A DNA stretch of 45,532 nt from Bacteroidota bacterium. GTDB taxonomy: Bacteria; Bacteroidota; Bacteroidia; Bacteroidales; Paludibacteraceae. The stretch lies in assembly GCA_030706465.1 (NCBI GenBank), contig JAUZOM010000008.1:1-45532 (forward strand). Direction: 5' to 3'. The first letter of the stretch is position 1. Each line of letters starts with the position of its first letter. Both the position numbers and the translations under genes were made by a program. Positions 4,529 through 34,969 of the stretch are shown here, one piece after another. Below the pieces are notes generated by a model that saw nothing but the letters and a program-made list of their open reading frames with translations, did not search any database and had not been told where the DNA came from.

Positions 4529-4747
4529 AGTATTCTCTTTCTTCAGTCTTACTTCTGCCGAGGCTCATGTTAGGTATAGAGGTATTTCAACAGGAGTATA
4601 GATAGGGTTTGGATAGGGTTCAGTTAGGTCTACCTATCCGAACCCTATCCGAACCCTATCCGAACCCTAACTGAACCCTAACTGAACCCCCTCTATACCT
4701 AAACTAGAATAAGACTGGAATAAGACTGCATCAAGACTGAGAATACT
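4529..4747. repeat. 219-bp folded element with 11-bp period (locus A)
   Basis: The outer arms AGTATTCTC (4529-4537) and GAGAATACT (4739-4747) are perfect complements. Inner arms TTAGGTATAGAGG (4571-4583) and CCTCTATACCTAA (4690-4702) also pair without mismatch. At the centre TAGGT-CT-ACCTA (4625-4636) closes the fold. Both halves are written in 11-bp steps. On the left TAGATAGGGTT, TGGATAGGGTT and CAGTTAGGTCT run from 4599 to 4631. On the right are the AACCC units at 4635-4689 and four CTgaAATAAGA-like units from 4704 to 4747. No coding frame or known insertion sequence explains it. Confidence 0.85.
4635..4689. repeat. tandem 11-bp repeat array, five units
   Basis: Three perfect copies of TATCCGAACCC (4635-4667) are followed by two perfect copies of TAACTGAACCC (4668-4689). 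The five bases AACCC are constant and the first six vary. The minus strand reads as GGG tracts separated by 8-nt loops, slightly longer than the usual G-quadruplex limit of 7. It is the core of the larger fold at 4529-4747. Confidence 0.95.
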
Positions 4748-4818
4748 CCCTCTTTTGATAGAAGAACAGTGGATAAAATAGCTCAAAGCATAAATTTACA
4801 CAAATAATATAATTCCAC

Positions 4819-4853
4819 AACTATAACTGTTGATAAAGTCAACAATTATAGTT
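4819..4853. promoter_or_regulatory. 15-bp dyad at the marR promoter, probable MarR operator
   Basis: AACTATAACTGTTGA (4819-4833) and TCAACAATTATAGTT (4839-4853) pair at 14 of 15 positions around a 5-bp spacer. The right arm ends on the first base of the -7 box. A bound dimer would cover the -33 region. MarR proteins bind such dyads and often repress their own gene. Confidence 0.65.
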
Positions 4854-4860
4854 ACCTTTG
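4853..4860 (+). promoter_or_regulatory. -7 box of the marR gene
   Basis: TACCTTTG fits TAnnTTTG, 22 bp before the ATG at 4882. It shows that an in-frame TTG at 4858 lies inside the promoter and cannot be the start codon. Confidence 0.6.
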
Positions 4861-4881
4861 CCGCGTACAAAAGTTAAGACC

Positions 4882-5322
4882 ATGAAAAATCAAAAAGCGC
4901 CTTTTGGGATGACCGTTGCAGGAATGATGCGTGAAGTGCTGCGCTTACTAAAAAAATCGACTGCAGAACATGCTGAAATAAAGATTACCCTTGAACAACT
5001 TGGATTATTGCTTGTTATTTTCAGCAGCGAAAACGAAGTGATCCAACAGGATCTGGCCTGTTCTATGGGAAAAGACAAATCGGCCATACTACGCACGATC
5101 GATATGATCGAATCGAAAGAACTGGTTAAGAGAGTATCGGACACGACGGACCGGCGGAAAAAATACCTGATGATTACCAAAAAAGGAGAACGGGTCATTG
5201 AACAATATCTCGAAATTGAGCTTGAATTAACCACTGAACTTCAAAAGGGCCTGACCGAAGAAGAAATGGCTACTTTTTACAAAGTGGTAAATCATATTAA
5301 AGACAAAGCAAAAACAATTTAA
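4882..5322 (+). CDS. MarR-family transcriptional regulator
   Basis: The product has 146 residues from the ATG at 4882. A winged helix-turn-helix lies at about 45-110. The helix pair IQQDLACSMGKDKSAILRTIDMIESKELV is split by the usual turn, and the wing reads DTTDRRKKYLMITKKG, with the DxRxK pattern of MarR proteins. Flanking N- and C-terminal helices would form the dimer interface. MarR proteins sense small aromatic or oxidising compounds and repress efflux or detoxification genes. No ligand can be read here. The following gene on the same strand is 0.5 kb away, and a promoter in between makes a shared transcript unlikely. Confidence 0.88.
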   Translation: MKNQKAPFGMTVAGMMREVLRLLKKSTAEHAEIKITLEQLGLLLVIFSSENEVIQQDLACSMGKDKSAILRTIDMIESKELVKRVSDTTDRRKKYLMITKKGERVIEQYLEIELELTTELQKGLTEEEMATFYKVVNHIKDKAKTI

Positions 5323-5835
5323 TATTTTCAGGCAACTGGTTGACTTAATCAATAATTGACAGATAAAACAATTTAAAATTGAAAAAATTGAAGTAACAAA
5401 GATTGAAGTAACGGAGTATTCGAAGTAATTTTGCATCCCGATTATCCAATCTGCTAACCGGGGTATCAAAAAATTCAGTATCGCCTTAAATCATTGCGAA
5501 GGATGGAGAAAGAAATAATGTTGCCTTTCCGGAATTTATGACATTCAGTTCTCTCCCGGTCTCTTCCAAACCTTAAATCGACATCTTTACAGCTATTTTT
5601 CGCGAAGTAAGAATATGGATCGAATACTTCCGGATAACAGAGTTGGAAGCAAGAAAAATAATCTCCGCCTATACGGGATATTGTTTATTTTCTATTATTT
5701 CTATAACGCGTTATTTTAAGTAACTTATACCTGTCTGCACGACAAAACTCCTCTGAGTAATGATTTTGCCGAGGACTATTAAGAAAATAGTTTTTAATCA
5801 GGACTGTAACTGCCAGTCATTAACTATATAATTGA
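5323..5835. other. 513-bp intergenic region, possible long leader
   Basis: It contains a 15-bp near-tandem repeat (ATTGAAGTAACAAAG at 5387-5401, ATTGAAGTAACGGAG at 5402-5416) and, overlapping it, a promoter at 5403-5433. From there to the next start codon is about 400 bp with no open frame that can be supported. It is either a long leader or a separate small RNA. Confidence 0.5.
5403..5433 (+). promoter_or_regulatory. promoter upstream of the DUF5686 gene
   Basis: TTG (5403-5405), 20 bp, then TAATTTTG (5426-5433) is a full Bacteroidota promoter match. The start codon of the next gene is about 400 bp downstream. Confidence 0.5.
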
Positions 5836-8394
5836 ATGATTTTTAAATTGATGAGAATAAGAATAGCCATTCTGTTCATTTTTCTATGTTTTACCCCACT
5901 ACTGGTTTTTTCTCAAGCAGATAAACAAGAAGTTTTAAAAGGAATTGTATATGATGCTCAAACTAATGAGCCCATACCATCTGCTTCTATTAGCTTGCTG
6001 AACCAGGAACAAGGTACCCGGGCCAACAAATATGGCAAATTCAGTTTGCCCCTAAATTCGTCCGCATTGGCAAAGGGGCAACTAAAAGTCTCTTGTGTAG
6101 GTTATAAAACCGAAATCCTATCATTACCCAACAACAATAAAGAACTCGAAATACGGCTAACGCCCCAGACACAGGATCTTAAAGAGGTAACTGTCAAAAA
6201 GCAAAAGTACATCAACAAAAACAATCCGGCCGTAGAATTGATTCAGCAGGTGATTGCAAATAAAAACAGAAATAAAAAGGAAGCTCTGGACTATTACGAA
6301 AATGAAAAATACGAGAAAGTCCAGTTTGCAATAAACAATATCACTCCTGATTTAAAAAAGAAGAAAATATTTAAACATTTCCAATTTGTGTTTGACAACA
6401 TCGACTCCCTTAAGAATAATGGGAAGAAAATATTGCCCATTTACCAAAAGGAAGTGATTTCAACTTACTATTACCAACGATCGCCGCAAAAGGTAAAAGA
6501 AATTGTGAAAGCTCAAAAAGCGGTATCATTTGCCGGACTCGACAACAAGGGGATCGAAGATAATATTAAGTACCTGTATCAGGATATCAACATCTACGAC
6601 AACAATATATCCTTTTTATCCAATCAATTTTTAAGTCCTATTGCCGGTTCGGCACCGGTCTTTTACCGGTATTACATCCTGGATACTATTCAATCCGGAG
6701 CCGACAAATGCGTAAGGATGTATTTCGGATCCCGGAACAAGGTGGATATGCTTTTCCAGGGATATTTGTATATTATGCTGGATGGAAGTTATGCTGTCAA
6801 GAAAATTGAATTATCGGTCAGCAAAGACATAAACCTAAACTGGATAAACGATGTGAAGATCGTCCAGGAATTCGAAAAGACACCAAGCAATAATTGGATG
6901 TTGGCATCGGACCAGATATCCATCAACTTTGGATTGACGAAGAAAAGTCGCGGGCTTTTCGGGCAGAAAATAGTGTCGTATACAAATTACAAGTTTAAGC
7001 CGGAAAAGCCAGAGAACGTGTTCAAGGGACAGAGTCTTCAGATACTCGACAGCGCCAAACGAAGGAGCAATGATTATTGGGATTTGCACCGGCAGCTCAA
7101 ACTTAGTAATTCAGAAGCCGGAGTTTATACCGCGATGGATAGCGTTCAAAAAGTTCCGGTCTTTAAACGGGCAATGAACATTGCCACCGTTGTATTGTTT
7201 GGATATGAAGACTTAGGCAAATATGAGATCGGACCTGTCAATACATTTTATATGTATAATCCGATTGAAGGGGTCCGGTTACGGTTTGGGGGAAGAACCA
7301 CGGATAAATTCAGCAAAAAGATAAATCTGGAGGACTATGTGGCGTATGGATTCACCGATAACCGGTTTAAGTATTATCTGGGTGCTTCCTGGTCGTTTAC
7401 AAACAGAGGATTATTGGAATTTCCCGTTAAATCGCTCAAGGTGAGTTATCAGAATGAAACACAGTTACCTGGACAGCAAATGCAATTTTTAATGGAAGAT
7501 AATTTTCTTTTATCCATAAAAAGAGGTGTGAATGATAAACTGTTTTACAATAAGACCCTCAAAGTGGAACATCTGAATGAGTTTGAAAACCACTTTTCGT
7601 ATACGCTGGGCTATAAGTTTACCAACGAAGCTCCCGGAGGAACTTTACGTTTCAATTACACCGACTATTTGGCCCAACGCAACGATGTGAATAGCCTTAA
7701 CATATCGGAGTTTTACCTTAATTTGCGCTATGCACCAAACGAAAGTTTTTATCAGGGAAAAACTTTCAGGATACCCTATTTCAGTAAATATCCTATTTTC
7801 GAATTAAGATACAACGTCGGATCCAAGCTTTGGAAAAATGATTACAATTATCAGCTACTCCGTTTCTCAATCCGAAAGCGGTTCTTATTATCGGTTTTAG
7901 GTTATTCGGACGTTGTATGGGAAGCCGGAAAGCTATTTGGAAAAGTACCCTATCCACTTTTGAACATGCCGCAAGCCAACCAGACCTATTCCTATCAAAT
8001 AGAGTCATACAATATGATGAATTTTCTGGAGTTTGTAACCGACCAATATACTTCGTTGTTGATAGACCACACATTTAACGGATTCTTCTTTAATAAGATA
8101 CCCTTAATTAAGCATTTAAACTGGAGGGAAATTGTCACCTGCAAGGTTCTGTACGGAGATGTAACAAAAAACAATGATCCACGGAATAACAGTGATTTAT
8201 TCAGATTACCGGTCGAACCGGATGGCACCCCGACGACCTACACCCTGGGCAAGATTCCTTACATTGAAGGAAGCATAGGGATTGGCAATATATTCAAGTT
8301 TTTCAGGGTTGATTTTGTAAAACGGTTTACATACCTAACCAATCCGCATGTATCGGAATACGGGCTGAGGATGCGATTCAGGTTTGATTTCTAA
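5836..8394 (+). CDS. DUF5686 outer-membrane protein with carboxypeptidase-regulatory-like domain
   Basis: The product has 852 residues. The signal peptide ends at VFSQ around residue 26; a start at 5851 (MRIRIAIL) would give a more usual n-region and is equally possible. Residues about 32-112 form a CarboxypepD_reg-like beta-sandwich (LKGIVYDAQTNEPIPSAS, then VSCVGYKTE), as in the plug region of SusC-type proteins. The remainder matches DUF5686, rich in beta strands with alternating aromatic residues. The chain ends in RMRFRFDF, a C-terminal aromatic typical of outer-membrane barrels. There is no TonB-dependent receptor plug domain. The family is widespread in Bacteroidota and without a proven function. 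The gene appears to be monocistronic. Confidence 0.85.
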   Translation: MIFKLMRIRIAILFIFLCFTPLLVFSQADKQEVLKGIVYDAQTNEPIPSASISLLNQEQGTRANKYGKFSLPLNSSALAKGQLKVSCVGYKTEILSLPNNNKELEIRLTPQTQDLKEVTVKKQKYINKNNPAVELIQQVIANKNRNKKEALDYYENEKYEKVQFAINNITPDLKKKKIFKHFQFVFDNIDSLKNNGKKILPIYQKEVISTYYYQRSPQKVKEIVKAQKAVSFAGLDNKGIEDNIKYLYQDINIYDNNISFLSNQFLSPIAGSAPVFYRYYILDTIQSGADKCVRMYFGSRNKVDMLFQGYLYIMLDGSYAVKKIELSVSKDINLNWINDVKIVQEFEKTPSNNWMLASDQISINFGLTKKSRGLFGQKIVSYTNYKFKPEKPENVFKGQSLQILDSAKRRSNDYWDLHRQLKLSNSEAGVYTAMDSVQKVPVFKRAMNIATVVLFGYEDLGKYEIGPVNTFYMYNPIEGVRLRFGGRTTDKFSKKINLEDYVAYGFTDNRFKYYLGASWSFTNRGLLEFPVKSLKVSYQNETQLPGQQMQFLMEDNFLLSIKRGVNDKLFYNKTLKVEHLNEFENHFSYTLGYKFTNEAPGGTLRFNYTDYLAQRNDVNSLNISEFYLNLRYAPNESFYQGKTFRIPYFSKYPIFELRYNVGSKLWKNDYNYQLLRFSIRKRFLLSVLGYSDVVWEAGKLFGKVPYPLLNMPQANQTYSYQIESYNMMNFLEFVTDQYTSLLIDHTFNGFFFNKIPLIKHLNWREIVTCKVLYGDVTKNNDPRNNSDLFRLPVEPDGTPTTYTLGKIPYIEGSIGIGNIFKFFRVDFVKRFTYLTNPHVSEYGLRMRFRFDF

Positions 8395-8741
8395 AAAAAC
8401 CATAAATTAATATTACTAAAAGGGCTCAACATAAAAACGCTTCTTGAGAGCAGCCGGTATAAAAACAACAGGTTAATTAATTATTTTACAAAGTTTTAAT
8501 CATTATCAGATATTATAACTGCAACTTATTAAAAAATAGCATCACGCTATAAAAGCAAACTAAAGATGAAGTCAACTGAAATATTTAGAAACATATCAAA
8601 ACTTTTTTTTGTACCTTTATGTGGTTTTTTTACATATATCGGGAACGCAATAGGAGTTTGTCCAATCCTAAGAAAAACAACATTTTACAATAAAAGAAAG
8701 ACTCACCCAAAATAATTTATATACGTAACACGATTAATAAC
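8395..8741. other. 347-bp intergenic region
   Basis: It is AT-rich, with no open frame and no strong hairpin. A weak -7-like TACCTTTA (8612-8619) lies 122 bp before the next start codon. It is the only promoter candidate seen and departs from consensus at the last base. Confidence 0.4.
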
Positions 8742-9443
8742 ATGGAATCAGAAAATAATCAGTCGATTAGCGACGTTTTAAAAACCATTTCCCAGGACAG
8801 GGGACGAACCAATATACTCAGAAAATACGAACAAAGGGCTCTTGCTTACTTGGTTCAACGGATTCCGTCGTGGATGAGTTCTGATATGCTGACAGCAATT
8901 GGATTCTTAGGAAGCATCATTATTTTTGTAAGTTTTATTTTGGCGACTTACTTTGGTGGAGTGTACCTTTTATTAGGCGTTTTGGGTTATCTGGTCTGTT
9001 GGTTTGGCGATTCACTTGATGGCCGGGTGGCTTACTACCGAAACAAGCAACGAAAATGGTACGGGTTTGCACTCGACCTGACAACCGATTGGATAGGTAT
9101 TGTTCTGATGGGTTGGGGATTTGTAATTTATGTTGACAACCAATGGGAAATACTGGGTTTCTGTTTTGTCGTTTTATATGGTTGGGAGATCCTTACAACC
9201 TTACTCCGCTACAAAATCACCGATAAATACTCCATCGATTCGGGACTATTGGGGCCAACCGAAGTGAGGATTGTCATTTCGCTCATATTAATACTGGAAG
9301 TTCTCGTGAAAGGCTCAATTTTGTATTCTACAGCACTAGCCTGTGCAATACTATTTATTACAAATTTTTCAGACACTAACAAATTATTAAAGTTGGCCGA
9401 TGTTCGCGATAAAGAAGAAAGAGAACACAATCATAACAAATAG
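8742..9443 (+). CDS. CDP-alcohol phosphatidyltransferase family membrane protein
   Basis: The product has 233 residues. Hydrophobic segments at about 50-70, 75-92, 122-145, 150-165 and 180-215 suggest an integral membrane enzyme. The family signature D-x2-DG-x2-A-R-x8-G-x3-D-x3-D is present around residues 90-116 as DSLDGRVAYYR, then GFALDLTTD. All four aspartates are kept, but the arginine after the alanine is tyrosine. Members join a CDP-activated lipid or alcohol to a second alcohol to make phospholipids or related lipids; the acceptor cannot be told. The stop codon lies 44 bp inside the following gtrA-family gene, so the two are translationally linked. Confidence 0.8.
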   Translation: MESENNQSISDVLKTISQDRGRTNILRKYEQRALAYLVQRIPSWMSSDMLTAIGFLGSIIIFVSFILATYFGGVYLLLGVLGYLVCWFGDSLDGRVAYYRNKQRKWYGFALDLTTDWIGIVLMGWGFVIYVDNQWEILGFCFVVLYGWEILTTLLRYKITDKYSIDSGLLGPTEVRIVISLILILEVLVKGSILYSTALACAILFITNFSDTNKLLKLADVRDKEEREHNHNK

Positions 9444-9936
9444 ATTATTTGAAAGAATAGCCTTCTCTGGCAAAGTACTAGAGAACAAAACAGTATCAAA
9501 TAAATTATTTGAAAAAATATTTATTTTTGGCAAAGCCCAAGTTTCAGCGTTTATTGGTGGTGTATCTGATTATGCGATAATGGTTTTTGCCACCGAATTC
9601 TTTCATGTTCATTACACTATATCTATAGCCATTGGAGGAACTATCGGCGCTATCGTAAACTTCAGTTTAAACAGGAAATGGACATTCCAATCGAAGGGAT
9701 TCACCTATAAGCATTCAATCAACAAACAACTGATAAAATTTGTACTGGTGGTATTAAACAGCATTCTACTAAAATCATCCGGCACTTATTTTATTACTAA
9801 TTTTTTGAAGATTGATTATAAAATAAGCCGAATCTTTGTTGATCTGGTAGTTTCCATTGCCATAAATTACACTCTTCAAAAATATTGGGTTTTCAAAAAT
9901 GTCAAAAGAGTCAAAAGTATTGAGAGTGTAAAATGA
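9400..9936 (+). CDS. GtrA-family membrane protein with duplicated N-terminal segment
   Basis: The product has 178 residues. Residues about 47-170 match GtrA: four hydrophobic helices, the motif NFSLNRKWTFQS after helix 2 and a closing INYTLQKYWVFKN. GtrA proteins are thought to move lipid-linked sugars across the inner membrane. The start at 9400 overlaps the upstream gene by 44 bp; the next in-frame ATG is inside the first membrane helix. Residues 8-27 and 28-47 are a 20-residue tandem repeat, with LFERIAFSGK matched by LFEKIFIFGK, placed just before the first helix. Pairing with a CDP-alcohol transferase suggests a lipid- or glycan-export role, which is inference. Confidence 0.82.
   Translation: MFAIKKKENTIITNRLFERIAFSGKVLENKTVSNKLFEKIFIFGKAQVSAFIGGVSDYAIMVFATEFFHVHYTISIAIGGTIGAIVNFSLNRKWTFQSKGFTYKHSINKQLIKFVLVVLNSILLKSSGTYFITNFLKIDYKISRIFVDLVVSIAINYTLQKYWVFKNVKRVKSIESVK
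9421..9540. repeat. 60-bp imperfect tandem duplication inside the GtrA gene
   Basis: Bases 9421-9480 and 9481-9540 align without gaps at 44 of 60 positions. The period is a multiple of three, so the frame is kept. The first copy contains the stop codon of the upstream gene. Confidence 0.85.
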
Positions 9937-10026
9937 TTGTTCCATTTCACAGCTCTTTTTGCCTCTTCTTTTTGGCAGTTAAAATTTGGTTCTTACAAAA
10001 CAACCTTTCCGTTTGACATTTTTCGT

Positions 10027-10034
10027 TATCTTTG
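10027..10034 (+). promoter_or_regulatory. -7 box of pepD
   Basis: TATCTTTG lies 46 bp before the ATG. The -33 element is weak. Confidence 0.45.
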
Positions 10035-10080
10035 TCGATAACTCAGCTTATCTTCAAATAAACACAAACATTCGATTGAT

Positions 10081-11526
10081 ATGAAGACACTCACTCCTTC
10101 GCCACTATGGAACTATTTCCATGAAATAACGCAAATCCCAAGACCCTCAAAAAAAGAAGAACGTATCATTGCTTATCTGAAGGATTTTGGCGAAAGACAT
10201 CAACTTGTCACTACAGTTGATGAAACCGGCAATGTTTTAATCTGCAAGCCGGCTACCGCAGGTTACGAGAAACACAAAACCATCATATTGCAATCGCACA
10301 TCGACATGGTCTGTGAGAAGAACAGCGACGTGATTCATAATTTTGATACCGACCCGATACAAACTTATATTGATGGAGATTGGGTGAAAGCCAGGGGAAC
10401 AACCCTGGGAGCGGACAACGGCATTGGCATATCCATGATGCTGGCTATTCTTGCTTCAGATGAACTGCCCCATCCAGCTTTAGAATGTTTATTTACCGTG
10501 GATGAAGAAACCGGACTGACAGGTGCTTTTGCCCTGAAACAAAATTTCCTAAGCGGCGAACTCTTGATCAATCTGGATTCGGAAGATGATGGGGAGATAT
10601 TCGTTGGTTGTGCCGGTGGAATTGACACCGTGGCGGTTATTACCTACAAACCGGAAAAAACACCGGAAAATTACTTTGGTTTTACAGCTTCCGTCAAGGG
10701 TCTACTGGGGGGACATTCAGGCGATGACATTGATAAAGGGAGGGGGAATGCCAATAAAATCCTGAACCGCTTCCTCTGGAGCCTGAATAAAAAAATGAAT
10801 CTACGCTTACATAGTTTCGATGGAGGAAACCTGCGTAATGCTATTCCCCGTGAAGCGACAGCGGTAGGTTGCGTTCCCTTCTCTGAAAAAGAAAATATAC
10901 GGGTACTGTTCAACCTTTACGTCAATGACTTGGAAATTGAAATGGGAGATGTGGAACCCTACATGAGCCTGACGTTGGAATCTGAGCCATTACAGGGGAT
11001 CGTTCTTGACAAGAAGTCTTCAACTACCTTACTAAATGCACTCTATGCCTGTCCACACGGTGTTATCGGCATGAGCCGCGATATGCCCGGCATGGTGGAG
11101 ACTTCTACCAACCTTGCTTCCGTAAAAACAAAAGCGAATAACACGATTGAGATTACCACCAGCCAACGCAGTTCGGTAGAATCGTCAAAACATGACATTA
11201 AACAACAGGTAGAAGCTGTCTTTACGCTGGCAGGAGCAACCGTAACTCAGGGGGATGGTTATCCGGGCTGGAAGCCTAATTTGAAATCGGAGATATTAAA
11301 AACGGCAACAGCCAGTTATGTAAAACTCTATAATGACCAGCCGAAAGTTCGTGCTATACACGCCGGACTGGAATGCGGTTTATTCCTTGAGAAATATCCC
11401 TGCCTGGATATGATTTCCATTGGCCCTACCATGAAAGGGGTTCACTCTCCGGACGAACGGCTGAGCATTTCCTCTACACAGCGATGTTGGGAATGGCTGA
11501 AGGCGATACTGGCTTTTCAGGACTAA
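10081..11526 (+). CDS. pepD: aminoacyl-histidine dipeptidase (peptidase D)
   Basis: The product has 481 residues, the usual length for PepD. It is an M20-family metallopeptidase, a cytoplasmic di-zinc enzyme cutting Xaa-His (carnosine-like) and other dipeptides. Metal-site motifs are clear: HIDMV (H73), GADNG, DEETGLTGA (E142/E143), the LDSEDDGEIFVG segment and a late H in GVHSPDER. The lid or dimerisation insert runs from about 190 to 380. It has its own promoter and there is no operon partner. Confidence 0.95.
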   Translation: MKTLTPSPLWNYFHEITQIPRPSKKEERIIAYLKDFGERHQLVTTVDETGNVLICKPATAGYEKHKTIILQSHIDMVCEKNSDVIHNFDTDPIQTYIDGDWVKARGTTLGADNGIGISMMLAILASDELPHPALECLFTVDEETGLTGAFALKQNFLSGELLINLDSEDDGEIFVGCAGGIDTVAVITYKPEKTPENYFGFTASVKGLLGGHSGDDIDKGRGNANKILNRFLWSLNKKMNLRLHSFDGGNLRNAIPREATAVGCVPFSEKENIRVLFNLYVNDLEIEMGDVEPYMSLTLESEPLQGIVLDKKSSTTLLNALYACPHGVIGMSRDMPGMVETSTNLASVKTKANNTIEITTSQRSSVESSKHDIKQQVEAVFTLAGATVTQGDGYPGWKPNLKSEILKTATASYVKLYNDQPKVRAIHAGLECGLFLEKYPCLDMISIGPTMKGVHSPDERLSISSTQRCWEWLKAILAFQD

Positions 11527-11602
11527 CCGTTATTTTTTATATAAATAATCAAACAAGTATTAAATACAGCCAAGGCTTTAAATTTTTAGTTTTTTATTTA
11601 TG

Positions 11603-11610
11603 TACTTTTG
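11603..11610 (+). promoter_or_regulatory. -7 box of the tetR gene
   Basis: TACTTTTG fits TAnnTTTG and ends one base before the operator at 11612-11629, so a bound repressor would cover the transcription start. Confidence 0.55.
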
Positions 11611-11611
11611 C

Positions 11612-11629
11612 ATACCGATCGTTCAGTAT
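11612..11629. promoter_or_regulatory. TetR operator copy 1
   Basis: The 18-bp site ATACCGATCGTTCAGTAT is symmetric at 14 of 18 positions. A near-identical copy lies at 12246-12263 before the efflux genes. Its position directly downstream of the -7 box suggests autorepression. Confidence 0.75.
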
Positions 11630-11640
11630 TTTTTATTTAT

Positions 11641-12228: not shown

Positions 12229-12245
12229 TTTTTTTGCAATAATAC

Positions 12246-12263
12246 ATACTGATCGTTTAGTAT
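12246..12263. promoter_or_regulatory. TetR operator copy 2
   Basis: ATACTGATCGTTTAGTAT differs from copy 1 at only two positions (C/T at position 5 and C/T at position 13). It starts 18 bp past the tetR stop codon and 288 bp before the adaptor gene. Confidence 0.75.
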
Positions 12264-12311
12264 TTATAATGGATTTATAGAATTAACTATAAAAGCAGAC
12301 TTAAATCTTCA

Positions 12312-12328
12312 GCCATAGTTGCTATGGC
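12312..12328 (+). other. 7-bp perfect hairpin in the efflux leader
   Basis: GCCATAG and CTATGGC pair around TTG. There is no T-run, so it is not a terminator. It lies in the presumed leader of the adaptor mRNA. Confidence 0.4.
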
Positions 12329-12533
12329 AGCTCTCCATCAATCATACAGAGAAGTCACACCTCATTTGTCTTATTTTTTCTTAAACAATTGAATACGAAC
12401 ACTGTCATTCAAAATTTTCAAGTCTGAGATTTACAGACAGGACAAAAAACTAATGGCTAATGCTATGCACTAATGAATCATAATAAAAAATCAATAAAAT
12501 AGAAATTTTATATTAATCATTTTTTAATAGAGT

Positions 12534-13556: not shown

Positions 13557-13558
13557 TT

Positions 13559-26928: not shown

Positions 26929-27087
26929 GTTCTTTTAAGATAGAATCTGAGCAAGGCTTTAACAGGCTCTCCAGTTACGTAAAAATTGCTGCGAGATTTA
27001 TTTTCTTGCAGCGATTTTTGTATCATGATATTCGAATAAATTACTTGTTTACGCATCAAGCAATCATTTTATCCGTTTGCTCTTCCC

Positions 27088-27582: not shown

Positions 27583-27595
27583 AATAAACTCCGAA

Positions 27596-28666
27596 TCATT
27601 TCAATCCGACTTCAAGGACGGTAAAAGTGCCCGGTTTAACTGATGCTCTTGGATGAGGATTTTGCGCTGTCGCTGCCGGAGCTTCATTGTATTCTGCTGT
27701 CGGCAAATAGAGTTTGTGGGTTTTCGAGTTCGCGGTAATTGTCCGGGCTCCCTTCTGAGTCGGGAAGTTTTCCAGAACTGTAAATGTGTTTGCATCTTTT
27801 TCCTGAACTACCGTCAGGGTTCCTTCACCGTTCGATGAATAAATTCTTTTTAGAACGGAATCGAACGAAACGCCATCACAGCTTTCCCCTATCTTGAGTG
27901 TAGCGACAACTTTCCCGGTTTCACAATTAACAACCGTCATTAATTTATTATCACAAACTGCGAATAAGCGATTGTTTTTTAGATCAATTGCCAGGCCGCT
28001 TGGTGATTCTCCCGGTGCTATCGGCCAGTTTTTTTCTACTTTCAGCGTATTGGCATTGATGACACTGATGGAATTTTTATCTTCTATATTTACAAATATT
28101 TTCCCTTTTAAATTACTAACCGGAAATTCCGGTTTCCCGGCTAATGCAATAGTTCCTATCACTTTATTCGTCCTGGCATCGATCACCGTTGAATTAGAAC
28201 TTCTTCCGTTAAAGGTAAAAACCCGATGAGAGAAGGGATCATAAAGTATACCATCCGGGTTGTTGCCTGTCACTTTTACTTTGGCAATCAGTTTCAATGT
28301 TTTCAGGTTGAAAATGGTAACGGAAGTGTCACGCCCATTGCTGATAAATCCCTTTCCAAGTTCCCCGGCAAGTGTAATCCCGTGCACTCCCTTTGTGTCC
28401 GGAATGGTTCCAATAAGCTTATCGTTGGTAACATCCACCACCTGTACTTCATTTCCGTGCGAAACATACAACCTGGAGGCTGCTTCGTCCAGGGTGATAT
28501 AATCCCAGCCGCCATTCCCTTCGAGATGTATTTTATTAACTACCTTATAGCTTGATTGTGCTGATGATGTAGCTATACAAAAAAACATCAATAAAATGAG
28601 TACGAAATTTAAGTTTTTCACATTATATGATTTAAAATGAATGATAGGAAAACACCCGGTTATCAT
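27596..28666 (-). CDS. exported YVTN/YncE-like beta-propeller protein
   Basis: The product has 356 residues from an ATG at 28666 that overlaps the upstream stop (TAATG). A GTG at 28621 would give the more usual signal peptide KNLNFVLILLMFFCIATSSAQ in shortened form, so the true start is uncertain. The mature protein has about seven propeller blades with recurrent YVSH/VFTFNG, TNKVIGTI and LFAVCDNKLMTVVN motifs. These are typical of 40-residue YVTN repeats. Propellers of this kind act in binding or as structural modules; no enzyme site is evident. It is translationally coupled to the HAMP sensor gene. Confidence 0.8.
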   Translation of the reverse strand: MITGCFPIIHFKSYNVKNLNFVLILLMFFCIATSSAQSSYKVVNKIHLEGNGGWDYITLDEAASRLYVSHGNEVQVVDVTNDKLIGTIPDTKGVHGITLAGELGKGFISNGRDTSVTIFNLKTLKLIAKVKVTGNNPDGILYDPFSHRVFTFNGRSSNSTVIDARTNKVIGTIALAGKPEFPVSNLKGKIFVNIEDKNSISVINANTLKVEKNWPIAPGESPSGLAIDLKNNRLFAVCDNKLMTVVNCETGKVVATLKIGESCDGVSFDSVLKRIYSSNGEGTLTVVQEKDANTFTVLENFPTQKGARTITANSKTHKLYLPTAEYNEAPAATAQNPHPRASVKPGTFTVLEVGLK

Positions 28667-29631
28667 TATGATTTTATTGCTTTCGACAATTCGTGTTCTA
28701 TCTCCTTAATTGTCAAAGATTGCTTTTTCAATGCTTCGTCATGATTCGACTGCGAAATAGAATCAATCAACTCACTCACCGACCCCAGTAAAGTCTGGAT
28801 ATTTTCAAGAACCAGGTTGTTATCTATTATTTTTTTTTCTGCAACAGCCGGCCTTATAATAGCAACCTGCTGGGAAGCCAGTTCCAATTTTTCGGCCATA
28901 TAATTAATCGCTTCGGCCAATTCTTTAAACTCATCCTTTGTGGAAATAGTTATCCGGCTTCTAAAATTGTTATTGGCTATTTCTTTAATATCTTCCGTTA
29001 TTTTCTTGATAGGTCCCGCGATAATGTTTGGAAAATTAATCATAAAGGAGAATGTAATCAGGAAACAAATCGCCAGAACGATCGAAAGGTTCTTGTAGGT
29101 ACGTCTGATCATTTCATTCACACTTTGGTTCTTCTGAACGATTGATTGCATATTTAGTGTCGATACCGTAAATATCTTTGCTTTTAATTCATTGGCCAAT
29201 GGCAGAATGTTCATCGAATAATAACCGGCCTTGTCGGTTATATTAGCGGTCTTTTGATCCGTCACCAGGGATTTATAGTTATAGTACTTCTGCCGGATGG
29301 ATTGCACCAACTCTTTTTCCCCAAATTCAGTGATATTTTTTTCTTCCAGGTTTAAATTTTCCTCAAACTTATTGAAAGAAACATCCAGTGAACTTCTATC
29401 AAAATGATCCTTTTTATTTAAAAGAAATGAATTTACGGTTGTATTCGATTCATCGATGGCCTGGATCATGTTTTCCGAATAATGGACAGACCAGTAATTG
29501 TTTTTAATCATCATTTCCGAGCTATATTTGATGGACGAAATATAATAAATGCTCAGCGCACCGATTAATACAAATTCAACAAAAAGAAAGAGGATCCCAA
29601 ATAATACTTTTGTTCTGATTTTAAATTTCAT
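28666..29631 (-). CDS. membrane sensor protein with HAMP domain and no kinase
   Basis: The product has 321 residues. TM1 is at about 9-32, a helical extracytoplasmic sensor at 33-180, TM2 at about 183-205. A HAMP domain follows (NIIAGPIKKITEDIKEIANNNF, shortened here, then DEFKELAEAINYM) to about 258, then a 60-residue coiled coil. The sensor half resembles four-helix-bundle sensors of chemoreceptors and KinB-like kinases. No histidine-kinase, cyclase or methyl-accepting tip is present, so the output is missing or is a partner protein. Its stop codon overlaps the start of the propeller gene by 1 bp, so the two are made together. Confidence 0.82.
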   Translation of the reverse strand: MKFKIRTKVLFGILFLFVEFVLIGALSIYYISSIKYSSEMMIKNNYWSVHYSENMIQAIDESNTTVNSFLLNKKDHFDRSSLDVSFNKFEENLNLEEKNITEFGEKELVQSIRQKYYNYKSLVTDQKTANITDKAGYYSMNILPLANELKAKIFTVSTLNMQSIVQKNQSVNEMIRRTYKNLSIVLAICFLITFSFMINFPNIIAGPIKKITEDIKEIANNNFRSRITISTKDEFKELAEAINYMAEKLELASQQVAIIRPAVAEKKIIDNNLVLENIQTLLGSVSELIDSISQSNHDEALKKQSLTIKEIEHELSKAIKS

Positions 29632-29678
29632 GACTTGCGGATTTTAATGATTGGATTTTTACTAAACATTTTTCGAAG

Positions 29679-29686
29679 CAAAGATA
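29679..29686 (-). promoter_or_regulatory. -7 box of the HAMP-sensor operon
   Basis: On the minus strand this reads TATCTTTG, 48 bp before the ATG at 29631. The -33 is unclear. Confidence 0.5.
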
Positions 29687-29719
29687 ATTTAAATTAATCA
29701 AATGTCTAATTTAAAACGC

Positions 29720-29755
29720 AAAAATCCCGCTTGAAGTTTTTCAAACGGGATTTTT
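29720..29755 (-). terminator. Rho-independent terminator of rsmA
   Basis: AAAAATCCCG and CGGGATTTTT form a stem extended by TTGAA/TTCAA around a short loop, with A/T runs at both ends. It lies just past the rsmA stop codon and before the HAMP-sensor promoter. Confidence 0.9.
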
Positions 29756-29792
29756 ACTATCATTTATTCAGAAAAAGTCGGAATCTTATACG

Positions 29793-30575
29793 CTATTTTG
29801 ACGCAAGCGCCGCTTCCACCCGATTGGTTAGGTCAATAAAGGCAGCCACATCCAACCGTTCCGGACGTAAATCAAATAACGGATCGGCATACATGGGATG
29901 ACCCTGTTCCACCAACGGTTTTAACGAATTTCGCAGGGTTTTCCGCCGTTGATTAAAGGAGGTCTTTACAACTGCTTTAAAGAGTTGCTCATTACACTTG
30001 ATCTGAGACACTTCATTCCGGGTAAAGCGTATTACCGCTGATTTTACTTTGGGGGGCGGATCAAACACATGCTCGTGCACCGTGAACAGATATTCTATTT
30101 TGTAATAGGCCTGCATCAAAACACTCAGGATACCATAGGTTTTACTTCCTGCCGGGGCAGCAATCCGTTCGGCCACTTCTTTCTGAATCATCCCGGTCAG
30201 GCAGGGGATCGAATCCTTGTTATCGAGCATTTTAAAGAAGATTTGACTGGATATATTATAGGGGAAATTGCCAATAATACAAAATTTATCGGGGAAAAGG
30301 GCTTTTAAATCCATTTTTAAAAAGTCCGCCTCAATCACTCTTAACTGCGGATAATGCTGATGCAGATATTCCACCGACTCACCATCCAGTTCAACAGCCG
30401 TCAGATCAATAAGCGGATTTTCAAGTAAGAATTGGGTCAGCACACCCATACCCGGTCCTATTTCTAGCACGGAAGTCCGGCCATCGAGTATCAGGCTTTC
30501 TGCAATCTGGCGGGCAATCCCCATGTCTTTCAGGAAATGCTGTCCCAGGTATTTTTTGGCTCTTACTTGTGTCAT
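29793..30575 (-). CDS. rsmA: 16S rRNA dimethyladenosine transferase RsmA (KsgA)
   Basis: The product has 260 residues. The SAM-binding motif I is LEIGPGMGVLTQFL (about 37-50) and the catalytic motif IV is NFPYNISS in place of the usual N(L/I)PY. The C-terminal domain includes FNQRRKTLRNSL. It dimethylates two adjacent adenines near the 3' end of 16S rRNA in ribosome assembly. It is transcribed away from the GtrA gene and ended by its own terminator. Confidence 0.96.
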   Translation of the reverse strand: MTQVRAKKYLGQHFLKDMGIARQIAESLILDGRTSVLEIGPGMGVLTQFLLENPLIDLTAVELDGESVEYLHQHYPQLRVIEADFLKMDLKALFPDKFCIIGNFPYNISSQIFFKMLDNKDSIPCLTGMIQKEVAERIAAPAGSKTYGILSVLMQAYYKIEYLFTVHEHVFDPPPKVKSAVIRFTRNEVSQIKCNEQLFKAVVKTSFNQRRKTLRNSLKPLVEQGHPMYADPLFDLRPERLDVAAFIDLTNRVEAALASK

Positions 30576-30641
30576 TTAGTTTATTCTTGTTGTAAATCCG
30601 GATTATATCTGAAAAAATTGAAAATGGTTAAAATCAGTGCT

Positions 30642-30670
30642 TTTGAGTTTGTAAAATTAATGTATCTTTG
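30642..30670 (+). promoter_or_regulatory. promoter of the second GtrA gene
   Basis: TTTG (30642-30645), 17 bp, TATCTTTG (30663-30670). The -7 is perfect and the spacing slightly short. The leader is about 110 nt. Confidence 0.45.
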
Positions 30671-30784
30671 CAGGGTAAACAAAAAACCATTTTTTTTAGA
30701 GACGCACAAAAGTAACAAAAATTGTTCGTCCATACTACATTTACCGGCTGAATATCCTTTAACAAAACAGATTTAGATAACTGA

Positions 30785-31291
30785 ATGAGAAAAGTTTTTA
30801 TATCCATTGGTGGTCGAATTCGTACAATTATCGATTTTTTTTATCCCCTTTTCCGGAAACACATGACAATTCAATTCTTCCGTTATGGAGTTTCCGGAGT
30901 TGCCAATATGATTTTCGACTGGATCTTATACTTTCTTGTTTTTCATTTTGTGTTGCGTCAGGGTATGTTATACCTGGGTATTGTCACATTTAGTCCGCAT
31001 ATCGCGGCATTGTTCCTAACCTTCCCCGTTACATTTCTCTCCGGGTTTCTACTTCAGAAATACGTTACCTTTTCCTCTTCTTCATTGCGCGGGCATGTTC
31101 AGCTTTTTCGCTATTTTCTGGTCCTGTTGGCCAATTTGCTGCTGAACTACCTCGGATTAAAAATAATGGTCGAATTTATTCATATTTTCCCGACACCGGC
31201 TAAAATGATTGTCACCATCTTCACCACTATGTTCAGCTATTTCTCCCAGAAGAAATATACTTTCAAGAAAGCTAAACACCAAATCAGCTAA
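30785..31291 (+). CDS. GtrA-family membrane protein
   Basis: The product has 168 residues. Four hydrophobic helices lie at about 36-58, 72-95, 110-130 and 138-158, with FLLQKYVTFSS after helix 2 and FSQKKYTFKK at the end, the GtrA pattern. It probably moves an undecaprenyl-linked sugar or other lipid across the inner membrane. It lacks the N-terminal duplication of the GtrA gene at 9.4 kb. It is 13 bp upstream of a flippase-like gene with which it likely forms an operon. Confidence 0.82.
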   Translation: MRKVFISIGGRIRTIIDFFYPLFRKHMTIQFFRYGVSGVANMIFDWILYFLVFHFVLRQGMLYLGIVTFSPHIAALFLTFPVTFLSGFLLQKYVTFSSSSLRGHVQLFRYFLVLLANLLLNYLGLKIMVEFIHIFPTPAKMIVTIFTTMFSYFSQKKYTFKKAKHQIS

Positions 31292-31304
31292 GGTGGCCTT
31301 TACT

Positions 31305-32294
31305 ATGGAAAGTCCAGGTGTTGTTACCAGCGGTAAACAGGAAAGATTGCTCACGTTTAAACCTTCCCTTAAGAGCCTGAAACTACTGGTGGTGGCTGCT
31401 TCCTGGTCATTCCTGGTCTATAAGCTTCTCACATTCCATCAATACGAAGATCTCGCCACACAATGGAGACAGCTGCCGTTATCGCATCTGGGATGGTTGG
31501 CGGCGGTTTTCGCCTTATTGCCCTTAAACTGGTATCTGGAAGCGTTGAAGTGGAAGATGCTGACCTCCGGAGTTCAACACATCAGCCTGACCACATCGAT
31601 CAAAGCGGTTTTATCCGGAATATCCACCGGCTTCTTTACCCCGAACAGGGTGGGCGAACTCGTAGGCAGGGTTGCTTTCCTGGAACCGGAGAACCGGAAA
31701 GCCGGTATTACCTTGAGTGCAGTGAATAGCCTGACGCAGAATATAATTATGGCCTGTTGCGGAATTCCGGCCTGTATCTTGTTTTTTCAGTATACCGCTG
31801 GCACCCTGAAACCGGACCTGGTGCATTTTATCGGATTAACCGGTATAGGTATCCTGATAACCGGGTTGATCTATTTTACCCTGCCACGCTGGAGCCGGCA
31901 ACTAAAAAGCAGCAGATTATCCGGTAAGATAAAAGCATTTACCGATTGCCTGTCCGGTTACAGCCAGAAAGAGTTATTGCAAATCCTGGGCGTTTCCTTT
32001 ACCCGTTACGTCGTTTTTTGTACGCAATTTTACTTTATGTTACGGTTCTTTGACATTGAACTAAGCATTCCGGTTGCTTTACTGGCCATTCCGACCAATT
32101 ACCTGTTTGTAACCTTCACCCCTTCGCTGGCGTTTTCCGAAGCCGCAGTGCGAAGTTCCTATGCCGTGCTGATTATCGGTGCACTTTCCGGTCAGGTAGT
32201 CAATATCGCCCTGGCTGGTGTTTGCATCTGGGCGGTGAATTTTGTTATCCCCATGCTGGTTGGATCGGTTGTGGTCGTAAGAAAACACATATAA
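31305..32294 (+). CDS. lysylphosphatidylglycerol synthase TM-region family protein (UPF0104)
   Basis: The product has 329 residues from the ATG at 31305, preceded by AGGTGG; an upstream in-frame ATG at 31209 would overlap GtrA by 83 bp. About eight hydrophobic helices are seen. The motifs TGFFTPNRVGELVGR and TPSLAFSEAAVRSS are the conserved halves of the flippase-like domain of MprF and its relatives. The aminoacyl-transferase half of MprF is absent. A role in lipid or lipid-linked intermediate handling is likely; the substrate is unknown. It converges on the minus-strand nucleotidase genes. Confidence 0.82.
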   Translation: MESPGVVTSGKQERLLTFKPSLKSLKLLVVAASWSFLVYKLLTFHQYEDLATQWRQLPLSHLGWLAAVFALLPLNWYLEALKWKMLTSGVQHISLTTSIKAVLSGISTGFFTPNRVGELVGRVAFLEPENRKAGITLSAVNSLTQNIIMACCGIPACILFFQYTAGTLKPDLVHFIGLTGIGILITGLIYFTLPRWSRQLKSSRLSGKIKAFTDCLSGYSQKELLQILGVSFTRYVVFCTQFYFMLRFFDIELSIPVALLAIPTNYLFVTFTPSLAFSEAAVRSSYAVLIIGALSGQVVNIALAGVCIWAVNFVIPMLVGSVVVVRKHI

Positions 32295-32401
32295 GACAAG
32301 GACCTGAAAGCATATACGTAAGGGAAGGATAATCTGAATTCAATCTTTCTGGCTACGGCTTGCGCGGGTTAGAGTTATTGAAAGACTAATTTTCACTTTG
32401 C

Positions 32402-32462
32402 CCGCAGGGCATCTGGGCCAATAGAAAAGATTGGTAATGTATCTGTTTTATCCGTAGGGCAT
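32402..32462. repeat. short direct repeat, 50-bp period
   Basis: CCGCAGGGCAT (32402-32412) and CCGTAGGGCAT (32452-32462) match at 10 of 11 positions, 50 bp apart, between two convergent genes. CCGTAGGG-type repeats spaced about 50 bp apart are frequent intergenic elements in Bacteroidota, so this could be a decayed one. Confidence 0.4.
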
Positions 32463-32539
32463 GAACAGCCGCATATTGGCATAAATCCCCCTCGAGCCTA
32501 AAAATACAGGTGTTCCTTTCTATAAGCCTCTCAACAATC

Positions 32540-33430
32540 TCATTTCTTTTTAATCTCCAGCTCCACTCTTCCCAGATACAATCCGCTTTTCCCCATTTGG
32601 GCAATCACCATCGGTTTCCCGGCTGCGTTCTTAACGGTGGTGTTAGTAATCATACTATGGGAATGCCCCCCAATGATCACATCGATATACCTTGTTTTAC
32701 GCGCTATCTCGAAATCGTTTACTTTCTTACTGGTACTATCACCTCCCAGGTGTGACAAACAGATTATCACATCGCATTTTTCCCTTTTCTTCAACAGGGC
32801 AGAAACCTCATTGGCCTTTTCAACAGGATCCTGGTATTCCATACCTTTATAGTTCTTCTCAAAAATCAAACTTACCGGGTTCACATCCAGCGCCAGAATG
32901 CCAATGCGCAATCCGGACCGTTCGAGCACCACATAAGGTTTTACCAACCCTGACAAACTGGTATGGTCCAGCTTGTAATTGGAGCTTATCATAGGGAATT
33001 TCGCATTTCTCAACACAACCGCCAACGTGTCGATCCCGTTATCAAACTCATGGTTTCCCAGGGTTCCGGCATCGTATTTCATCCGGTTCATGGCATCAAT
33101 CTCCACCCGCCCATTCAGGAAATTAAAGTACGGCGTTCCCTGCGAATAATCCCCCGCATCCACCAACAGGACATTTTCTTCTTTCGCACGAATTTGGTTA
33201 ATTACTCCCATCCTGCGGGCATATCCACCCATATCGGACGTTTTTAAAGACGATTTATCCGTAGGCTCCACCTGACTGTGGGTATCATTGGTATGCAGGA
33301 TCACCAGTTTTATCTTCGACTGTCCAAGAACCGTAAGGATGGAGAACAACAAAATAAAAACGGCAATCCCCCCCTTCCATTTCATCTGATTATCCGAATA
33401 TCTATAGATTTGTGTTGACATGTTTTTCAC
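32540..33430 (-). CDS. 5'-nucleotidase family metallophosphatase, catalytic half
   Basis: The product has 296 residues. A signal-like segment ends at LTVLGQ (an internal ATG at 33385, MKWKGG, may be the real start). Di-metal motifs of the calcineurin-like fold are HTNDTHSQ, VDAGDYSQGTP, GNHEFDNG, CLSHLGGDS and GGHSHS, in that order. It removes phosphate from nucleotides or related esters outside the inner membrane. The nucleotide-binding C-terminal half usual in UshA-like enzymes is absent here and encoded by the gene just upstream. The two were probably one gene once, or act as a pair. Confidence 0.9.
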   Translation of the reverse strand: MKNMSTQIYRYSDNQMKWKGGIAVFILLFSILTVLGQSKIKLVILHTNDTHSQVEPTDKSSLKTSDMGGYARRMGVINQIRAKEENVLLVDAGDYSQGTPYFNFLNGRVEIDAMNRMKYDAGTLGNHEFDNGIDTLAVVLRNAKFPMISSNYKLDHTSLSGLVKPYVVLERSGLRIGILALDVNPVSLIFEKNYKGMEYQDPVEKANEVSALLKKREKCDVIICLSHLGGDSTSKKVNDFEIARKTRYIDVIIGGHSHSMITNTTVKNAAGKPMVIAQMGKSGLYLGRVELEIKKK

Positions 33431-33465
33431 TGTTAATTGTTGATTATAAATTTATGTATTGTAAA

Positions 33466-34230
33466 TTATTTTACAATTCTTCCATCCAGTTTCGATTGGA
33501 TCTTATTTCCCTTTTTTGTCTCGCCTTTGATATACTCCAGCAGCATGTCCCGCACTTTGATACCTGTATTTACTTTTTTTTCATATTGGGCCAATTGAAA
33601 CATGTTGTCGTTCCCAGCGGCCAAATAATCATTGGTAGCAATGCTGTAAAGTTTTTCGGTATCCAGCGGCTTTCCACCTACCGTTATGTGGATCGCTTTC
33701 CTGTTTTCTATCTCCAGGCGCAAACCAGAGACTCCTTCCCCACCCATGCCGGCAAAGTACTGGAGCAGTTGTTCCAGTTTGTCCCCTTTCAACCAAACAA
33801 TGACCAGCTCATTTTCGAAAGGCATTAATTCAAACACCTTCCCGACAGTAATGTTTCCCGCCGGTACGACCGTGCGCAGTCCCCCCAGGTTCACAACCGA
33901 AATATCCACCTGTTCACCCAAGAACTTCGATGCCGCTTGTCGGTACACATCGGCACTAAAATTAGAGAGTAGACTCTCAGGGGCATGGCCTTTCATGGTC
34001 TCTGCCACCTGCCCGATCACCACATTCATCCGGGCATCAACCCGTTGCTTTAACGGCTGCAACAGCTTTTCGTAATCCTTATCGGCGATCACTTCCGTAG
34101 TGCTGTCAATCGCAATTTTGGAAGAAGTGGCCTGAGTGATTACCCATGCTTTATGACTGCAGGATACCGCTGCGACCATAAAAAGCGGTATAATTAAAAT
34201 ACTTTTGATGTTCATCCTGTTTTGATTCAT
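33466..34230 (-). CDS. 5'-nucleotidase C-terminal domain lipoprotein
   Basis: The product has 254 residues, or 249 from MNIKSILI. A lipobox (AAVSC) makes it a lipoprotein. The body matches the substrate-specificity domain of 5'-nucleotidases: SNFSADVYRQA, NLGGLRTVVPAGNITVGKVFELMPFEN (shortened) and IATNDYLAAGNDNM. This domain normally stacks on the nucleobase. It has its own export signal and lies 35 bp before the catalytic half on the same strand, so it works as a separate subunit. The stop codon is not followed by an overlap, so a simple frameshift does not explain the split. Confidence 0.88.
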   Translation of the reverse strand: MNQNRMNIKSILIIPLFMVAAVSCSHKAWVITQATSSKIAIDSTTEVIADKDYEKLLQPLKQRVDARMNVVIGQVAETMKGHAPESLLSNFSADVYRQAASKFLGEQVDISVVNLGGLRTVVPAGNITVGKVFELMPFENELVIVWLKGDKLEQLLQYFAGMGGEGVSGLRLEIENRKAIHITVGGKPLDTEKLYSIATNDYLAAGNDNMFQLAQYEKKVNTGIKVRDMLLEYIKGETKKGNKIQSKLDGRIVK

Positions 34231-34365
34231 GAAAATATACGTCTGATAAAATTGAAAGTACGAAAGTACTGAAATTTAATTTACAGGCAAAAGAAAGCAA
34301 AAGATTGTTGCTTTTCAAATGTCGCGCAAGCAAAATGATGATTGAGCCGGCATTTAAATAGCATT

Positions 34366-34577
34366 TAATTCTACTTTACTAAATTAAAACAAAGCTAATA
34401 ACTCTGACCACAATAGACACAATAGAACACACAAATTAATCAAAAAAGTACACAATAGTCAACTACATAAGGATATTTTAAGATTATAAATTCAGAAAGA
34501 TGGCTAAAAAAAATGTCTTCTATTGTGAACTAGTGTGTCTATCGGGATTCGTTCTTTATTTTGGTAAAGTAGAATTA
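34366..34577. repeat. 212-bp inverted-repeat element, MITE-like
   Basis: Terminal arms TAATTCTACTTTACTAAA (34366-34383) and TTTGGTAAAGTAGAATTA (34560-34577) pair at 17 of 18 positions. Nested inside, ATAGACACA and CACA on the left have counterparts TGTG and TGTGTCTAT on the right. The middle is AT-rich. It is the size and shape of a miniature inverted-repeat element or a long hairpin RNA gene. No target-site duplication is obvious. Confidence 0.6.
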
Positions 34578-34802
34578 GTAAAGTAAAATGACTGCGTATT
34601 TTAAAATTATCTTCGAGTTAACCGTTTATAATCCGGTTCCGCAAGCTGCACGCGGGATATTAAATCCGGCTTTCCCAAACCGGGAAATGAATTAACCCTG
34701 TATTTCTTTTTCAAACGACCTGAATTTTGGGATCACTATTGCCCGATCATTGATAACTGATGACTGCTGACCGATCGCCTTTCATTCGGCTTTTGATATT
34801 CC

Positions 34803-34969
34803 TTCATTCTATGTATAATGGGAATTCAGAGGCACTTCCCTGGGGGTTCAGATAGGTATATCCCTCTGAACCCCCTCGCAACCCCCAGGAAACCCCCAGG
34901 CAACCCCCTCTGAACCTTATCTGAAATGCGGACCAGCCACGAAGCCAGTTACTCCCGGTATAGAGTGAA
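34803..34969. repeat. folded element with 11-bp period (locus B)
   Basis: Outer arms TTCATTCTAT (34803-34812) and ATAGAGTGAA (34960-34969) pair at 9 of 10. The left half carries 11-bp blocks GAATTCAGAGG, CACTTCCCTGG and GGGTTCAGATA (34822-34854). The right half carries the AACCC array and a final TTATCTGAA arm. The layout parallels locus A at 4529-4747 although the sequences differ. Confidence 0.75.
34862..34916 (-). repeat. 11-bp array with four G5 tracts, G-quadruplex motif
   Basis: C-runs start at 34871, 34882, 34893 and 34904, each five bases long and exactly 11 bp apart, with a CCC before them at 34862. On the minus strand this is G5 tracts joined by the 6-nt loops TTGCCT, TTTCCT and TTGCGA, meeting the strict G3+N1-7 rule four times over. 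Each unit ends in AACCC, as at locus A. Confidence 0.95.

Follow-up and report, generated by a model that had tools for sequence, protein, structure and literature searches.

What are the two 11-bp tandem arrays that fold back on themselves in one contig of a Paludibacteraceae genome, and why do both of them lie between divergently transcribed genes? The question is raised by a stretch of 45,532 nucleotides (‘the window’; Bacteroidota bacterium, GenBank assembly GCA_030706465.1, contig JAUZOM010000008.1, positions 1 to 45,532 of the forward strand), for which a preliminary description had proposed an undescribed repeat family. Locus 1 carries its AACCC 11-bp units at 4633–4698 and locus 2 its AACCCCCNNNN units at 34862–34921, both on the plus strand; the positions, the period, the AACCC of the right-arm units and an opposing GGGTT arm across the dyad were verified at each, as that description had them. 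With moderate confidence we favour a joint reading in which such arrays are fold-back minisatellites carried by mobile elements, the carrier at locus 1 being a miniature inverted-repeat transposable element (MITE) of IS630 type, and in which they are excluded from transcribed DNA.

A genome-wide repeat family

The 11-bp AACCC repeat family is real and extends through the genome. In the draft that contains the window (G000; 4.34 Mb in 337 contigs) the three-unit pattern AACCCN6AACCCN6AACCC is matched 238 times (125 + 113) and the same pattern read backward not once (0 + 0), an excess far beyond chance; the 100 listed of these 238 matches group into 40 places. The genome-wide scan suggested in the preliminary description therefore finds the family well beyond the two loci of the window and, as set out below, with a bias towards divergent gaps. 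Across 60 genomes, G000 included, the pattern occurs in four (238 matches in G000, 221 in its close relative G005, placed in the same genus, 70 in G008 and 1 in G018), and the backward-read control gives 10 matches in G008 and one each in G002 and G018; among the 59 others only G005 and G008 are array-rich. (G030 and G075, which appear below, are further genomes of the comparison.) A search of the open-access literature found no published description of 11-bp fold-back arrays, and to that extent the family may still be called undescribed. Array elements sit at many contig ends of the draft, and are therefore relevant to assemblers.

The six variable bases had been held to be the same within a locus and different between loci, as if each array had been homogenised locally. 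This proves to be a tendency and not a rule: six-base identity averages 0.82 within arrays against 0.67 between them, and 13 of 56 arrays are uniform, but both arrays of the window are mixed (TATCCG and TAACTG at locus 1; CCTCGC, CCAGGA and CCAGGC at locus 2), TAACTG being one among 23 six-base variants.

The element that carries the array at locus 1

When positions 4300–4900 were compared with G000, 79 matches turned up, spread over 40 places scored out of 136 candidates; the window’s own locus is among them. Similarity among 43 copies begins at 4355–4359 in 23 of them and ends at 4756–4767, the truncation point of the window copy, in 27. Full copies of this ‘type-1’ element span TAAG(C/T)AGGTGGAATAACTGAATG to TATATTTCCAATTACTTA, and in the 23 of 43 copies in which a loose pattern detected both ends they measure 459–882 bp, with a median of 539. 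T precedes AAG in 21 of these 23 and TA stands at the right end in 20, the TA lying inside the inverted ends. The copy in the window occupies 4357–4767 on the plus strand, begins with TAAG, in which the leading TA presumably comes from the target site, and lacks its right end; it holds no open reading frame of at least 80 aa, and is thus a dispersed, multicopy, short element without a transposase gene.

Conservation follows the layout of the element. Among 37 aligned copies, mean pairwise identity rises from 0.33 in each flank to 0.76 in the head (4357–4568, plus strand) and 0.85 across left arm and dyad, the best-conserved part of the element, and then declines through the right arm (0.81) and outer right arm (0.71) to the tail (0.58). 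For locus 2 the matches in G000 lie for the most part within the core, with one on contig 101 extending to 34784 (40 scored of 103 candidates). Locus 1 is thus the core of a dispersed element, and locus 2 a related array in which the conserved head and tail are missing. The single family that had been claimed for both loci thus holds for the common core, its two members being unequal, and the outer arms said to be common to both are weakly supported, given the extent of the locus-2 matches.

A candidate mobiliser

On contig 31 of G000 (L148) a copy of the element is directly joined to a fragment of an IS630-family transposase (PF13358). A stop-free piece of 66 aa from this fragment is 92% identical to part of an open frame of 204 aa in the congener G030, a genome with 0 AACCC arrays. 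The IS630 element of G030 (L349) starts with TAAGTAATGG and has TAAGTAATAGG as its other-strand end; the type-1 ends agree with these imperfectly, the one at 21 of 36 positions and the other at 22 of 30, scores that were reached by 2 (the window containing the element itself) and by 0 of 294 TAAG windows. Since its ends resemble those of the G030 element, and since a copy of it is fused to a transposase fragment in G000, type 1 is best read as an IS630-type MITE that carries a fold-back minisatellite; the relict state of the transposase suggests that it may no longer move in G000. Beyond the fusion, L148 (about 1–1600) shows a further repeat that is also present in L177 and L137, and contig 305 of G000 holds another, more distant IS630 element with perfect 20-bp ends, TAAGTAAGTGATCAAAATTA.

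With the 66-aa query, IS630 transposase was detected in 13 of 48 genomes, among which G000 alone is array-rich. The preliminary description had offered instead, as an example, a transposase-like protein associated with repetitive extragenic palindromes (REP). That candidate (Y1/RAYT type) is not supported as the mobiliser: PF01797 occurs in 8 of the 10 congeners tested, and five of these carry no AACCC arrays. Neither the IS630 nor the Y1 transposase, then, tracks the AACCC arrays.

Arrays between divergent genes

Placement was assessed on genes called by our own codon-score script, which is not a standard gene finder, and chiefly in a G005 sample of 1,588,448 bp, about a quarter of that genome. 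Of the 59 arrays placed there (at a threshold slightly looser than that of the 56-stretch set used below), none lies in a called gene and two fall outside the counted gaps. Arrays are present in 27 of the 91 divergent gaps, in 22 of the 702 codirectional ones and in 8 of the 97 convergent ones. The divergent excess is significant against codirectional (p = 7e-15) and convergent gaps (p = 2e-4) alike. Arrays in divergent gaps also lie nearer the middle than a uniform placement would put them, with a mean shorter-side share of 0.37 against 0.25 (n=27); for codirectional gaps the mean is 0.30 (n=22). By family, the divergent share is 15 of 32 for AACCC, 7 of 11 for TAGATA, 4 of 8 for ATCCATA and 1 of 3 for others.

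At the G000 loci, which were chosen for holding arrays, 24 of 37 arrays with two called neighbours are divergent (p = 2.4e-4; arrays lacking two such neighbours are omitted from these counts), and in 400 kb of G005 the figure is 7 of 15 (p = 1.7e-3), the background for both values being weighted by base pairs and including array gaps with the element removed. The bias towards divergent gaps that had been noted for the window is thus borne out in both genomes. It is not general to the repeats of G005, because other dispersed intergenic repeats, with the arrays masked, show no divergent bias in array-free gaps: they are present in 8 of the 63 divergent gaps, in 82 of the 504 codirectional ones and in 25 of the 79 convergent ones. 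In the quarter of G005 that was sampled, then, arrays are found in about three of every ten divergent gaps, while the other repeats of that genome are placed otherwise.

One period and symmetry, several sequences

The AACCC units are one case of a more general architecture. At lag 11 the same G005 sample has 56 periodic stretches, 42 of them palindromic, whereas the palindromic share is 6 of 68 at lag 7, 0 of 28 at lag 8 and 3 of 46 at lag 9; in the first 400 kb, 13 of 14 lag-11 stretches are palindromic, against 10 of 300 random segments that pass the palindrome test. The 11-bp families of G005 are unrelated in sequence, comprising AACCC types, ATCCATA/TTCCATA, TAAGATACATC types and ATGATGTC types. 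In 400 kb of the array-poor congener G075 there is a single genuine lag-11 array (the other of two matches, a run of N, was dropped). Among the AACCC-pattern matches listed, which do not amount to a survey, fold-back arrays could be recognised by eye in Pedobacter sp. N36a, Flavihumibacter, Niastella and Chitinophaga. As side observations, G005 has many 7-, 8- and 9-bp tandem arrays (loci L197–L216 and L256–L315; the 68, 28 and 46 stretches above), mostly non-palindromic, and in four Bacteroidales records (L061, L082, L092 and L122) 11-bp arrays appear by eye to shift their unit sequence along the array at constant period.

The dyad itself is evenly spaced. The GGGTT-to-AACCC span measures either 30 or 41 bp in all 32 dyads of G005, in 49 of 50 at the G000 loci, in 9 of 11 of Pedobacter N36a and in 2 of 3 of G008, although copies within a genome are related and these counts hence represent few independent observations. 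Among dyads fitting GGGTT-N6-8-N6-AACCC, from which arm covariation was taken, the first-unit arms of the same element match at 0.82 in G000, against 0.85 for arms of different elements (48 elements), and at 0.80 against 0.74 in G005 (15 elements); there is, in other words, no covariation in G000 and a slight one in G005. Because the arms of one element match no better, or only slightly better, than those of different elements, selection is unlikely to act on a conserved stem, whether of RNA or of a cruciform, which leaves room for each unit being read as double-stranded DNA.

The same gaps in other genomes

The gap at locus 2, between tyrS and a gene for a 5'-nucleotidase, could be followed across genomes. 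Of the 48 genomes searched, tyrS was matched in 44, with 30 loci returned, and among these 30 an 11-bp array stands in the tyrS/5'-nucleotidase gap in only G000, G005 and G008, with three unit types (by eye). Thirteen other tyrS loci keep the 5'-nucleotidase neighbour, with a gap of 139–427 bp between alignment ends, and within 14 of the 30 loci that neighbour was not found. The segments that adjoin both genes align among the three array-bearing genomes and resemble those of array-free species (partly by eye).

A wider comparison of orthologues, limited to pairs of at least 60% identity and 70% length and leaving out array-free sides near stretch ends, finds a G005 array on the same orthologue side for 10 of 23 G000 sides with an array and for 1 of 70 without. 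Much of this co-occurrence arises because both genomes favour divergent gaps; within divergent gaps that keep both neighbours it is 7 of 12 against 0 of 3, the G005 baseline being 27 of 91. Unit types differ in 8 of 8 gaps common to G000 and G005 (by eye), although at L138 the pair could represent a single family that has drifted. On these two grounds we do not claim a single inherited array at the common sites, and we read the common gaps as repeated settlement of permissive sites, or as turnover.

A model, and the alternatives to it

Synthesis of these results leads us to propose that the arrays belong to one class of fold-back minisatellites, whose period is fixed at 11 bp (roughly a turn of the helix) and which would accumulate between genes with small non-autonomous mobile elements as their carriers, at least in part. 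Locus 1 is a right-truncated copy of an element of ~540 bp whose inverted ends are imperfect and both bear TA, and this element would be a MITE that an IS630-family transposase moves in trans. Tandem slippage would then alter the length of an array and partly homogenise its units, giving each array a unit mix of its own. We further suggest that a long dyad-symmetric array may be tolerated only in places that transcripts do not run across, with copies in other places lost through purifying selection, and that the mid-gap, divergent position would be mainly a consequence of this tolerance.

Several observations weigh against this model. No aligned empty insertion site was found for the type-1 element, and TA is part of both inverted ends, so that a target duplication is only presumed; IS630 transposase was not found in G005 or G008 with the 66-aa query (PF13358 was not searched there), and 12 of the genomes that do have it are not array-rich. 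The ATGATG family of G005 has 0 of 3 arrays in divergent gaps, and the 14 unique arrays of Pedobacter N36a (L125 duplicates L346, and L336 has no array above threshold) show no divergent bias, with 3 divergent, 9 codirectional, 1 convergent and 1, L344, without a neighbour. Moreover, the array gaps of G005 hold other repeats in 8 of 27 divergent cases (against the 8 of 63 in array-free gaps), in 8 of 25 codirectional and in 2 of 9 convergent ones; such repeats may be remnants of the elements, or they may mark gaps that are permissive, in which case the permissiveness of long gaps may contribute to the placement.

That the arrays play an active part between divergent promoters is conceivable, and is to us the most interesting reading. 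In its plainest form the phased dyad array would act as a functional divider, binding a protein or absorbing negative supercoils as a cruciform and so separating the two promoters, with selection keeping the array whilst its sequence drifts. The divergent and central placement, not seen for other repeats, would fit such a role, as would the sharing of one period and layout by sequence-unrelated families and the high conservation of the left arm and dyad; but AACCC arrays are missing from most congeners, whose tyrS gap is short, Pedobacter has no divergent bias, and the arms of one element are no better matched in G000 and only slightly so in G005, which together make us doubt this explanation without dismissing it. 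A bolder version, which we consider unlikely, takes period and symmetry, and not sequence, as what is conserved: unrelated families of Bacteroidota would have converged on, or been rewritten within, a dyad-symmetric 11-bp architecture that serves as a topological buffer or insulator between divergent promoters. If it were true, one motif per helical turn on a common lattice would be the reason for the architecture.

Placement might also come about without any later selection, if the mobile elements simply target the AT-rich promoter DNA found in divergent gaps. Different unit types do occupy one gap in two or three species, and array gaps are richer in other repeats as well; the bias is nevertheless common to sequence-unrelated families and absent from other dispersed repeats, and we regard a plain insertion preference as distinctly improbable. 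Least of all do we expect that the functional part is a G-quadruplex, formed from the GGG run that recurs every 11 bp on one strand: the AACCC families do present GGGTT at each period, but the ATCCATA and TAGATA families have the same period and layout without such G runs and, to judge by where they sit, behave alike. The placement of the arrays offers a natural test of how long periodic dyads influence local supercoiling and the transcription of divergent genes, and of what holds unrelated minisatellites to a period of one helical turn.

The two loci in the window

At locus 1 the outer left arm (4529–4551, plus strand; inverted repeats I7–I9, pairing with 4710–4750) is followed by an inner left arm of GGGTT units (4570–4628, plus strand; inverted repeat I1 with 4644–4702), by the dyad GGTCTACC at 4627–4634 with a GGGTT-to-AACCC span of 30, and, beyond the inner right arm, by an outer right arm of ACTGGAATAAG units (4703–4745, plus strand), likewise periodic at 11 bp. 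Locus 2 has its left arm at 34820–34852 (plus strand; inverted repeats I1 and I4) and its dyad, GGTATATC, at 34855–34862, again with a span of 30. The fold of locus 1 has a z of -8.7, with 0 of 200 shuffles equally good, and that of locus 2 a z of -2.5, with 1 of 200. Both are flanked by divergent pairs: locus 1 by a Por_Secre_tail protein gene (3524–4042, minus strand) and a gene for a MarR-family regulator (4882–5322, plus strand; the start codon is our choice), and locus 2 by a gene for a protein with a 5'-nucleotidase C-terminal domain (33466–34230, minus strand) and the tyrosyl-tRNA synthetase gene (35377–36669, plus strand).

Structured RNA in the head of the element was considered and rejected, folding energies lying within 2 standard deviations of shuffles on both strands (8 tested of 29 copies). 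Rfam at gathering scores reports two tRNAs elsewhere in the window and nothing more, and inside the type-1 element it gives miRNA models alone, all below their cut-offs, as expected from a long hairpin. The three-unit TAACTG pattern has 0 exact matches in viral_contigs, and positions 4350–4770 have no match in PLSDB. The gap at locus 2 also contains a second MITE-like repeat at about 34364–34578, with inverted ends TAATTCTACTTTACTAAA / TAATTCTACTTTACCAAA, to which stretches in the C39 and C23 loci are related; and a 7-bp tandem repeat (43033–43100; TCTTGAC, then GCTCTAA units) lies at the end of the minus-strand gene 43097–44053.

Comparison with known systems

IS630-family MITEs are a known class, and type 1 resembles them in the TA at its ends, its IS630-like termini and its want of an open reading frame; it differs in the 11-bp dyad array inside and in that the partner was not found, with the 66-aa query, in two of the three array-rich genomes. 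The operators of CarA/CarH, in which 11-bp direct repeats serve as binding sites phased by one turn, are a precedent for the reading of 11-bp arrays, although they are single regulatory operators and here there are hundreds of dispersed dyad arrays.

TAACTGA heptamer repeats are described in Beggiatoaceae, Cyanobacteria and some Bacteroidetes, Paludibacter propionicigenes being among the genomes named (PMC4679880), and the same TAACTGA is contained in the unit CCTAACTGAAC of the 11-bp arrays. As presented in the available text of that paper, however, they are tandem 7-mers that are not dyad-symmetric and that in a Beggiatoaceae genome lie mostly just upstream of start codons, whereas the arrays here have a period of 11. 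REP sequences and bacterial interspersed mosaic elements (BIMEs), with their RAYT transposases, likewise form many extragenic palindromic copies (PMC3733652); going by the portion of that source available, these are palindromes of 20–40 bp with a tag, against the 11-bp arrays here, which PF01797 does not track.

The nearest described system, as far as the sources available to us go, is BrickBuilt of Porphyromonas gingivalis, also of the Bacteroidales: a minisatellite within a MITE, with 23-nt direct repeats, IS5-like ends (GAGACC...) and 19 copies (PMC4596501). BrickBuilt is mentioned in a 2024 review of prokaryotic MITEs (PMC10969869), in whose available text neither ‘IS630’ nor ‘divergent’ occurs. 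Like the 11-bp elements, it consists of a leader, tandem repeats and a tail between short inverted ends, is strictly intergenic, and has imperfect units that vary between copies. Its period is 23 nt instead of 11 and its ends are GAGACC instead of TAAG...CTTA, and the available text of PMC4596501 describes for it neither a fold-back array nor the divergent placement seen for the present elements. Measured against what is there described, the 11-bp elements thus differ from it in period, symmetry, ends and placement alike.

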